Positions 5,569-33,116 of a stretch of DNA of 41,015 nucleotides are shown one piece after another (position 1 is the first letter of the stretch; every line of letters begins with the position of its first letter). The position numbers were made by a program, and so were the translations under genes. The stretch is from Chloroflexota bacterium. GTDB taxonomy: Bacteria; Chloroflexota; Chloroflexia; Chloroflexales; Roseiflexaceae. Below the pieces are notes generated by a model. That model was not told the origin of the DNA. It ran no database searches and saw only the letters and a program-made list of their open reading frames with translations. The stretch lies in NCBI GenBank assembly GCA_030550675.1, contig JAUQOW010000008.1, forward strand, positions 1 to 41,015, written 5' to 3'.

Positions 5569-5657
5569 GTACAGACGTTGCATTGCAACGTCTGTACGAT
5601 GGCGTTGCATTGCAACGTCTGTACGATGGCGTTGCATTGCAACGTCTGTACGATGGC
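5569..5657. repeat. Three 27-bp tandem repeats with palindromic core, likely bidirectional terminator
   Basis: Three identical 27-bp units begin at 5577, 5604 and 5631, each starting GTTGCATTGCAACGTCTGTA. Bases 5569-5597 form a perfect inverted repeat with 14-bp arms (GTACAGACGTTGCA and its complement) around a single T. It lies between the convergent beta-galactosidase and flavodoxin genes, where hairpins could end transcription from both sides. The same core appears at 16824-16872. Confidence 0.85.
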
Positions 5658-16823: not shown

Positions 16824-16872
16824 AACATTTGTGGTAGAGACGTTGCATTGCAACGTCTCTACCACAAATGTT
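16824..16872. terminator. Perfect 49-bp inverted repeat between convergent genes
   Basis: Two 24-bp arms (AACATTTGTGGTAGAGACGT then TGCA, and the exact complement) flank a single T at the centre. A shorter related string, GGTAGAGACGTTGCG, precedes it at 16806. It lies between the stop of the GT4 gene and the stop of pyruvate phosphate dikinase, so it probably ends both transcripts. It shares the TTGCATTGCAA core with 5569-5657. Confidence 0.8.
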
Positions 16873-30820: not shown

Positions 30821-31627
30821 TCATCGATTGTCCGGCTCGTTATTGATGGCGAGGAGATACCCTTTCCCGCGCACATTGAGGATATAGCGCGGCGAACTGG
30901 GGTCAGGCTCCAGTTTCTGGCGCAGGTGATGGATGTGGGGCTTGATCAACTCGCCCGCCTCAAGGTCGCTGGCATCGTACCCCTGCGCGCACTTGACGAG
31001 CTGGCTGTACGACAGCATCGTGCCAGCATGCTCGGCAAGGCAGAGCAGCACCCGGAACTCGGTCGGCGTCAGCGCCAGCGTGCGCCCCCCAAGGGTCGCA
31101 ACCTGCCGCCAGGTGTCGAGTTGCAACTGCCCAATGACAATTGTGCGCTCCGCCTGTGTCGGTAGCGGCGTCTCAACCGTGGCGGCAACCGAGCCGCGCA
31201 ATTCCTGGACCGCTGCATCAACCGCGTTCAGTAACGCGCGTCGTCGTTGCTCGGCGGCGTGCGCCTGCAGCGCTGCGCGAACGCGCTCGAGCACCTGTGA
31301 TGGCTCAGTGTTCTTCAACAAATAGTCGAAAATGCCATGGCGCAACCCTTCGATGGCGGTTTCAAGCGAACCGTGTCCCGTCAGAATGATGACGGCAGTA
31401 TCGGGATGACGGGCGCGGGCGGCTGCGACCACCTGCATTCCGTCAACGCCGGGCATTTTGAGGTCCACAATCAATAAATCAAACGTCTGCTCATCAAGGA
31501 GCGCAATAGCTTCAGCGCCGCTGGACGCGGTCGTCACCTCATAGCCAGCGCGTGTCAGCATTGCGCCCAGTGTCAACCGAATATTGGCCTCGTCGTCGAC
31601 CAGCAGTATTCGCTCTGACTGGCTCAT
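30821..31627 (-). CDS. Response regulator with NtrC-like receiver and OmpR-like output domain
   Basis: 268 residues. The receiver (5-122) has the acidic pair Asp11-Asp12, phosphoacceptor Asp55 in LLIVDLKMPG, Thr83 in LTGHGSLETAIEGLRHGIFDYLLK and Lys105; that string is characteristic of NtrC/ActR-type receivers. A helical, Glu/Ala/Arg-rich linker (110-150) follows, then a winged-helix Trans_reg_C domain (about 165-260) with LTPTEFRVLLCLAEHAG and ending RYILNVRGKGYLLA. No sigma54 AAA domain is present, so it activates or represses ordinary promoters. The ATG at 31627 follows GGAGGGGGG. No kinase gene is adjacent. Its promoter and a palindrome over the expected start site suggest autoregulation. 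Confidence 0.92.
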   Translation of the reverse strand: MSQSERILLVDDEANIRLTLGAMLTRAGYEVTTASSGAEAIALLDEQTFDLLIVDLKMPGVDGMQVVAAARARHPDTAVIILTGHGSLETAIEGLRHGIFDYLLKNTEPSQVLERVRAALQAHAAEQRRRALLNAVDAAVQELRGSVAATVETPLPTQAERTIVIGQLQLDTWRQVATLGGRTLALTPTEFRVLLCLAEHAGTMLSYSQLVKCAQGYDASDLEAGELIKPHIHHLRQKLEPDPSSPRYILNVRGKGYLLAINNEPDNR

Positions 31628-31665
31628 GGCGTCCCCCCTCCCAGGCGCGCTGCGCATATGGCGAC

Positions 31666-31692
31666 ATCGAACAGATGCACTGTCTGTTCGAT
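31666..31692. promoter_or_regulatory. Perfect palindrome at the response regulator start site (operator candidate)
   Basis: ATCGAACAGA (31666-31675) and TCTGTTCGAT (31683-31692) are perfect 10-base inverted repeats with a 7-base spacer. It lies immediately downstream of the predicted -10 element, over the expected transcription start, a usual place for a repressor site. Confidence 0.6.
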
Positions 31693-31694
31693 GA

Positions 31695-31724
31695 ATGGTA
31701 GCACCAAAGGCGGATGGATGTCAA
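31695..31724 (-). promoter_or_regulatory. Promoter of the hybrid response regulator
   Basis: On the minus strand TTGACA (31724-31719), 18 bases, TACCAT (31700-31695). The predicted start is near 31688, giving a leader of about 60 bases. Confidence 0.6.
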
Positions 31725-31781
31725 CTGACGATTGCGAATCCTGAACTTTTGCCTGAAAACCATCTAGCAATTGCCCACCTT

Positions 31782-31920
31782 TTGTAGTATACTGGAGATG
31801 ACTGATAATCATCTTGTGATAAAATACACAATCGACGGGTTTGAGAGACTTGCTGACCCCGCGTGGCTCCTCCCGCGCACGCAGGAAGCCGATGTCGGCG
31901 GAAGCGTTTTTGTTTTTTTG
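31782..31920 (+). promoter_or_regulatory. Leader region of the winged-helix/molybdoenzyme pair
   Basis: A possible promoter is TTGTAG (31782-31787), 16 bases, GATAAT (31804-31809). It overlaps a small palindrome AGATGA-N7-TCATCT (31796-31814). Further down, GCCGATGTCGGC (31888-31899) followed by a T-rich stretch (31906-31919) could act as an attenuator before the first gene. All are weak candidates; the 348-bp gap contains no gene. Confidence 0.35.
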
Positions 31921-31975
31921 TGATCCGCTGATGGGTGAGGTCACCGGCGACCCTTAGTTCAAAAGGAGGAGGTCG

Positions 31976-32368
31976 ATGATCGACCAGAGCGTGCGTTCGT
32001 TGCTCGAAGGGGCGATTGACACGCCTCTCAAACTGCAACTGGTGCTCCTGTTTGCCGAGCACCAGCATTTGCGCGCTACTGCTGGACAGGTGGCAGATCG
32101 GATCTACCGTGATATCTGGAGCACGCGCGAGGCGCTGCGCGAACTGGCAGAGAGCGGAGTGCTCTCCGAAACGAATACGCCGGACGGTCCGGCTTATGCG
32201 TTCTGCCCGTCGTGCGAGCTGGCGGATTCTATTCGGCGCTTGATCGAGTGCTACAACGAGCCACTGGAGCGCGACCTGATTCATCGCACGTTGCGCGAGA
32301 TCGCTGGCGATGCGTCCTATCGTCGGGCGGCTCGGATGGGGATCGCTTTTGAAAGCCTGAGCTTCTAG
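31976..32368 (+). CDS. Winged-helix domain protein, putative transcriptional regulator
   Basis: A 130-residue protein. Residues about 15-75 look like a winged helix (LKLQLVLLFAEHQHLRATAGQVADRIYRDIWSTREALRELAESGVL, then a wing around ETNTPDGPAYAFCPSCELA). A helical tail follows. A CPSC pair (about 80-83) could bind metal or act as a redox switch, but with only two cysteines this is speculative. AGGAGGAGG precedes the ATG, so translation should be strong. The sulfite-oxidase-fold gene follows after 14 bases, suggesting cotranscription. No specific regulator family is recognised. Confidence 0.7.
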   Translation: MIDQSVRSLLEGAIDTPLKLQLVLLFAEHQHLRATAGQVADRIYRDIWSTREALRELAESGVLSETNTPDGPAYAFCPSCELADSIRRLIECYNEPLERDLIHRTLREIAGDASYRRAARMGIAFESLSF

Positions 32369-32382
32369 AAATCTAGAGCGGT

Positions 32383-33000
32383 ATGTCTGAGCTGTTCAAG
32401 AAGAAGTATGACCACACTCCTCCCGACAAGCGCGACCGTGTGCCTCCCGGTCAGTACGTCACAGAAAAGTTTCCGGTGCTTCATTATGGCGAGGTCCCAA
32501 TCTATCACGACGTTGAGAAGGATTGGGACCTGCGCGTTTGGGGTGAAATCGAAGCGCCGGCGCGATTCAGTTTTGCCGAGTTCCGCGCTCTCCCCACAAT
32601 CGCAATTACGACCGATATTCACTGCGTGACCCGCTGGAGCAAGCTTGACACTCACTGGGAAGGCGTGCAGTTCAAGGAGTTTCTCAAGCACATCCCGCCG
32701 CTCAAGCCGTCCGCCAGATACGTGATGGCGCACTGTGAGCACGGTTTTACGACGAATGTCCCCCTCGAGGTGTTGCTGGAAGACGATGCGCTGCTGGCGT
32801 ACAAATACGAAGGCGAGGAGCTGACGCCGGAGCATGGCTATCCGCTGCGCCTGCTGACGCCGCGCAAGTATTTCTGGAAGAGCGCCAAATGGCTGCGCGG
32901 CATTGAGTTCATGGCGGAGGATCGCCCCGGCTTCTGGGAGCGCTACGGTTACAACAATAACGCCGATCCCTGGAAGGAGGAGCGCTACGCGGAGGAGTAG
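32383..33000 (+). CDS. Sulfite-oxidase-fold molybdopterin oxidoreductase (YedY/MsrP-like)
   Basis: A 205-residue protein carrying the oxidoreductase molybdopterin-binding domain. [25 protein letters not shown] is the usual lead-in, Cys81 in [17 protein letters not shown] is the molybdenum-ligating cysteine, and [26 protein letters not shown] is the typical pterin-pocket end. It has no Tat leader or membrane segment, unlike E. coli MsrP, so it appears cytoplasmic and its substrate is open. The ribosome binding site is poor; translation may be coupled to the winged-helix gene 14 bases upstream. A strong hairpin lies about 90 bases after its stop. Confidence 0.9.
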
Positions 33001-33087: not shown

Positions 33088-33116
33088 CCCCCTTCTCCCA
33101 CAACGGGAGAAGGGGG
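33088..33116. terminator. Perfect 12-bp inverted repeat between convergent genes
   Basis: CCCCCTTCTCCC (33088-33099) and GGGAGAAGGGGG (33105-33116) enclose the loop ACAAC. It lies between the molybdoenzyme stop and the isomerase stop. The T run is short, so termination efficiency is uncertain. The rest of 33001-33227 is C-rich with no gene. Confidence 0.6.

Follow-up and report, generated by a model that had tools for sequence, protein, structure and literature searches.

What does a perfect inverted repeat do when it lies over the predicted transcription start of a response regulator gene? It could act in the DNA as the operator of a dimeric regulator, it could act in the RNA as a hairpin at the 5' end of the message, or it could do nothing. 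The question arises in a stretch of 41,015 nucleotides from a Chloroflexota bacterium, here called the window, for which an earlier note had described such a palindrome and suggested that it serves negative autoregulation or another dimeric regulator. In the literature searched, no paper was found that deals with this locus, with this regulator, or with both start sites and promoters in Roseiflexus. The locus is arranged as follows.

30821-31627, minus strand: response regulator gene with receiver and Trans_reg_C domains (OmpR/PhoB type), start codon ATG at 31627 (domain scan, alignment)
31633-31642, minus strand: G-rich ribosome-binding stretch GGGAGGGGGG (sequence)
31665-31675, minus strand: gene-side arm of the inverted repeat, the 3' arm in the mRNA (inverted-repeat scan)
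31676-31682, minus strand: loop or gap of 7 nt (inverted-repeat scan)
31683-31693, minus strand: arm beside the -10 hexamer, the 5' arm in the mRNA, holding the predicted start site (repeat and promoter scans)
31687-31689, minus strand: predicted transcription start, G 31689 or A 31688/31687 (from the position of the -10 hexamer)
31695-31700, minus strand: -10 hexamer TACCAT, with TGC just before it (promoter scan; invariant in 7/7 genomes)
31719-31724, minus strand: -35 hexamer TTGACA (promoter scan; invariant in 7/7 genomes)

The regulator gene, its promoter and the palindrome

The product of the gene consists of a receiver and a winged-helix domain of the OmpR/PhoB type, and its earlier description as a hybrid response regulator is wrong. 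The description as an orphan holds as far as the scan went, in that no histidine-kinase family was found for 16 proteins of the window. The best matches of the regulator are in Roseiflexus genomes; among 60 genomes of relatives, 47 contain a match with an E-value of 1e-40 or below, and no NCBIfam equivalog exceeds its cut-off among the best 25 of 108 matches. The start codon at 31627 is kept in all seven close relatives of the alignment. An alternative upstream ATG at 31657 is in frame, yet it is absent in G005 and out of frame in G004, and was rejected.

The minus-strand promoter comprises TTGACA (31724-31719), a spacer of 18 and TACCAT (31700-31695) with the TG of an extended -10, and it scores 10 of 12 hexamer positions plus the TG. 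TTGACA-18-TGC-TACCAT shows no change among six Roseiflexus genomes and G009, the nearest genome of another genus. Upstream regions were also surveyed at 39 loci, which are the 40 named orthologous loci at 59% identity or more minus L068, which begins inside the gene; the survey left out 40 further loci at 46% identity or less. A promoter-like pair occurs within 180 nt upstream at 35 of these 39 loci, with an exact TTGACA at 29. The promoter proposed in the earlier note is thus borne out, and it appears, from its sequence, to be a convincing promoter of the sigma-70 type. Because it is so conserved, a start inside the palindrome is a fair prediction: the usual spacing leads to about 31689-31687, in the distal arm, which agrees with the start near 31688 predicted earlier. 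This promoter, being strongly conserved, can serve as a reference when start sites are predicted in this group. At orthologues of the regulator outside Roseiflexus (L043, L049 and L061, for instance), the motifs ACTATAG (25/39 loci) and GGAGYGCAA (24/39) were seen between promoter and start codon.

The palindrome itself is a perfect inverted repeat, CATCGAACAGA-N7-TCTGTTCGATG, at 31665-31693, with 11-bp arms, a 7-nt gap and a proximal edge 37 nt from the ATG at 31627. The 10-bp palindrome reported earlier, ATCGAACAGA-N7-TCTGTTCGAT at 31666-31692, is exact, and one extra pair extends its arms to 11 bp. In 5000 dinucleotide shuffles of the intergenic region 31628-31975, with gaps of 3-12 allowed, arms of at least 11 arose four times (0.0008); the corresponding values are 0.0014 for arms of at least 10 and 0.0108 for arms of at least 9. 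The whole window holds six perfect inverted repeats with arms of at least 11, against a shuffle mean of 0.2, which indicates that such repeats are no rarity in this DNA and that the significance of the palindrome is local. Long near-perfect inverted repeats were noted at 16824-16872 and 5569-5624, with the common words AGACGTTGCA/TGCAACGTCT.

Several identities could be set aside. Even when 3 mismatches in 20 are allowed, the genome (446 contigs, completeness 99.83) holds a single site, so the palindrome is single-copy and the dispersed repeat that the earlier note had considered does not apply. The only terminator-like site in 31550-32050 lies at 31985-31971, away from the palindrome, which is therefore not an intrinsic terminator. 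No Rfam family matches the window at gathering scores, and bxd_1, at E 1.2 in 31600-32020, is at chance level. The LexA/SOS box, whose consensus is CGAACRNRYGTTYG, shares CGAAC with the palindrome but needs GAAC-N4-GTTC, whereas the GAAC and GTTC of the palindrome are 13 bases apart. A different palindrome, CCCCCTTCTCCC...GGGAGAAGGGGG, lies at 33088-33116 and also occurs at L003, L004, L032 and L033, near genes, in the manner of a dispersed repeat.

The palindrome across relatives

The pattern GAACA-N5-20-TGTTC occurs upstream of the gene at 4 of the 39 orthologous loci, all four in Roseiflexus, and in none of the 35 upstream regions of non-Roseiflexus orthologues inspected. Absence from orthologues, which the earlier note had named as evidence against its proposal, is accordingly observed outside the genus (35/35), while within it a palindrome, partly in changed form, is present in all six genomes. 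G009 keeps the promoter and has a 6-pair stem elsewhere, with none comparable.

The form of the repeat differs within Roseiflexus. Strict arms of at least 9 are found in three of six genomes, namely G000 (11 pairs), G005 (12 pairs) and G002, where a 1-nt deletion breaks the outer pairing and a longer inner stem, GAACAGATG-CGC-CATCTGTTC, has 9 strict pairs. G004 has 12 pairs with two departures from strict pairing, both of them G-U. G001 and G003 have CGAACAGAC-N10-GTTTGTTCG, with 9 pairs including one G-U and a longer loop; this N10 register depends on the alignment, as MAFFT sets the 3' half one nucleotide further, with a weaker repeat. GAACAGA-N7-T(C/T)TGTTC is kept at constant spacing in four of six. 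When G-U pairs are allowed, a contiguous stem of 9-12 pairs is present within 45 nt after the -10 hexamer in all six genomes. In the three with broken outer pairs (G002, G001 and G003), it starts at nucleotide 5-6 after the -10 hexamer, about where transcription is expected to begin.

Across the six genomes, 15 of 22 arm columns are invariant, compared with 2/7 in the loop, 17/37 in the rest of the leader, 54/100 upstream and 24/30 in the promoter; conservation of the arms is thus only somewhat above that of the sequence around them. Compensatory changes are absent at the palindrome: none of 12 pairs is altered on both sides among five distinct sequences, and the changes observed are one-sided and of the G-U kind. 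Taken together, the loss of strict symmetry in three of six genomes, the retention of G-U-tolerant pairing in all six and the position of the stem near the predicted start argue only moderately for a role in RNA over one in DNA; the G-U part of the argument consists of three pair departures, one of them common to G001 and G003.

A possible 5'-terminal stem-loop or protein-binding site

The reading that we tentatively favour is that the palindrome acts as RNA, forming a stem-loop at the 5' end of the response regulator mRNA; it is possible rather than probable. Transcription would begin at or beside the G of GAACAG, in which case the message would open with GAACAGA-N7-UCUGUUC. The hairpin, if it folds in the cell, would bury the 5' end in a stem, and this could hinder both the conversion of the 5' end and 5'-to-3' attack by RNase J, so that the regulator message would be kept stable. 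In all six Roseiflexus genomes RNase J (TIGR00649) is above cut-off, and RNase E/G (PF10150) was found in none of them; among 14 control genomes, the two were found in 9 and 6, respectively. By analogy, this complement fits a 5'-end-dependent decay such as that described for B. subtilis in section 7 of PMC3997798. The same section states that B. subtilis mRNA can be stabilised by a hairpin located at its 5' end or close to it, and that RppH of this species requires at least two unpaired 5' nucleotides. The present locus resembles these stabilising leaders, as they are depicted there, in its possible 5' stem, in the strong promoter directly upstream and in the presence of RNase J in the genome. 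It differs from them in that its start base is predicted, its stem depends on the exact base, and the stem fails in one genome. Other 5'-terminal stem-loops of the stabilising kind reportedly occur in the E. coli ompA and papA transcripts.

Predicted folding makes clear how fragile this reading is. For a start at the G, the mean probability of the core pairs is 0.96-0.99 in five of six leaders and 0.0 in G004. If transcription instead begins one base later, at the A, where the spacing would be more usual, the core hairpin has a probability of 0.10-0.29 (0.0 in G004) and is lost in all six. A competing fold wins in G004 for all starts tested from nucleotide 4 after the -10 hexamer (0.0), with a value of 0.46 from nucleotide 1. 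When alignment windows are ordered by the longest stem common to all six genomes, the top 25 are all at or overlapping the palindrome; by mean folding energy, the palindrome comes only 29th among 381 windows, with the divergent leader ahead of it.

A survey of stems after promoters in one relative gave points on both sides: the short stems speak for the RNA reading, the long ones against it. We surveyed 1.6 of the 5.8 Mb of G003 for stems in the 40 nt after the -10 hexamer of promoter-like sites, with 30 shuffles as control. Stems of at least 7 pairs follow 18 of 87 sites with a score of at least 11 (shuffles 6.9, largest 12; 40-80 nt further, 5/87; upstream of the -35 hexamer, 11/87) and 34 of 218 sites with a score of at least 10 (shuffles 15.4, largest 22; 40-80 nt further, 14; upstream, 20). 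Stems of at least 8 pairs are not clearly enriched (10/218 versus 5.6 in shuffles, largest 11, and 10 upstream), and those of at least 9 hardly so (3/218 versus 2.3). In the first 400 kb of G003, stems of at least 7 pairs are found at 12 of 57 sites versus 245 of 3000 random positions, and stems of at least 9 at 1/57 versus 51/3000. Short stems after promoter-like sites are thus modestly enriched in this relative, which suggests that short dyads near starts are common and that the palindrome represents an ordinary arrangement in a long form. The practical weight of the palindrome is modest. If the stem does stabilise the message, it would offer a simple and testable case of mRNA decay control from the 5' end in Chloroflexota.

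A function in DNA is an alternative. The palindrome may be the operator of another dimeric regulator, for instance of the small winged-helix protein from the divergent gene at 31976; bound over the start, such a protein would block RNA polymerase. The perfect 11-bp dyad on the predicted start is a feature shared with repressor operators that overlap transcription starts, GAACAGA-N7-T(C/T)TGTTC keeps its spacing in four of six Roseiflexus genomes, and the divergent gene adjoins in all seven aligned genomes, its start region being at the far end of the alignment. We nevertheless consider this reading unlikely, as strict symmetry of at least 9 is kept in only three of six congeners, the spacing is changed in G001 and G003, the start of the divergent gene is about 280 bp from the palindrome, and the genome holds the one site at up to 3 mismatches of 20, none of the other sites inspected being operator-like.

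It is likewise unlikely that the palindrome has no function at all and is a recent inverted repeat that is drifting. Such an origin would agree with its restriction to one genus, with arms that are only somewhat better conserved than what surrounds them, and with a window richer in perfect inverted repeats than its shuffles. Against it stand the rarity of such a repeat by chance at this spot (0.0008) and the presence of some stem in all six congeners.

We consider it improbable that the response regulator represses its own gene, the negative autoregulation proposed in the earlier note. The palindrome does lie over the start of the regulator's own gene, and a single-copy site would suit a purely local feedback. 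According to passages of PMC3960148, most regulators of the OmpR/PhoB family bind direct repeats; certain members bind inverted repeats (passages of PMC8345958 and PMC3960148), HP1043 and OmpR being named as exceptions in PMC8345958. The palindrome is similar to the binding sites of this family in lying at the promoter of an OmpR/PhoB-type gene, but it is an inverted repeat, where the majority rule, which is not absolute, would call for a direct one. In addition, both the regulator and its promoter are conserved outside Roseiflexus, where the palindrome is found at none of 35 loci, and no other target site was seen among those inspected. Negative autoregulation is therefore unsupported and not favoured, the strict arms being kept in three of six genomes versus six of six for the G-U-tolerant stem, and the same applies to the idea that the palindrome provides the binding motif of the regulator, given that no second operator-like site emerged among those inspected. 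The comparison of related genomes tips the balance slightly towards an RNA hairpin and away from a binding site of the regulator itself. Should the palindrome prove to be an operator, it would offer an initial way into the study of an orphan regulator, whose gene is conserved across the order together with its promoter.

Similar sites and neighbouring elements

Searches with relaxed motifs and with exact arms covered six genomes and 82 genomes of the order. In the palindrome's own genome, 34 sites match GAACAGA-N7-TCTGTTC at up to 2 mismatches of 14, whereas the reversed control motif yields 4. Of 14 sites inspected among the 33 besides the palindrome, 13 fall within open frames of at least 154 codons (a rough proxy, as the palindrome itself lies in one), so the excess probably reflects coding words. 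Exact GAACAG-N4-16-CTGTTC gives eight sites in this genome: the palindrome, six in open frames of at least 277 codons, and one at the promoter of a DUF3417 gene. Across the order, GAACAGA-N7-TYTGTTCGAT at up to 1 mismatch occurs in 19 of 82 genomes; the listed matches without any mismatch are those at the regulator locus of G000, G002, G004 and G005.

At the DUF3417 gene, the GAACAG/CTGTTC arms directly follow a TATAGT -10 hexamer and are common to the same four genomes (4/7). In G003 and G001, T-A replaces one C-G pair and one or two outer pairs are lost; G009 keeps the inner five pairs. Changes on both sides occur in two pairs there, a number that 83 of 500 shuffles also reach; 26 of 500 reach the covariation score (five distinct rows), so a link between the regulator and the DUF3417 gene is speculative. 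We take DUF3417 to be the N-terminal domain of glucan phosphorylases. The GAACAG/CTGTTC start-site stem could in principle be a signal, for RNA decay or protein binding, that is common to both genes in four Roseiflexus genomes and ties the regulator to the use of storage carbon, which we regard as very improbable. The arms at a HerA-central-domain gene in G003 were dropped as a third shared-stem case: they are best read as SOS-box-like, with a conserved middle and a 3' arm that is not conserved. In L161 (about 17776-17740, minus strand), the SOS-box-like sequence CGAACAGGTGTTTA lies over the predicted start of this gene, with orthologues at L232-L237 and small changes only across six genomes.

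Other conserved elements were observed in and beyond the intergenic region. A block at 31766-31793, around TAGTATACT and CCACCTTTTG, is near-invariant in seven genomes and is perhaps a divergent promoter. At 31814-31831 there is a TTGTG-N8-CACAA dyad, presumably akin to a CRP/FNR-type site, whose five predicted pairs are kept in 7/7 aligned genomes, partly through G-U. A strongly conserved foldable leader occupies 31848-31950 on the plus strand (core 31865-31890), upstream of the divergent winged-helix gene at 31976 and a molybdopterin oxidoreductase gene at 32383. It reads GGCTCCTCC...GCAGGAAGCC followed by GTCGGCGG, with a T tract in some genomes. It has no Rfam match, its core occurs once each in 7 of the 82 genomes of the order, and its predicted consensus includes two pairs with changes on both sides.
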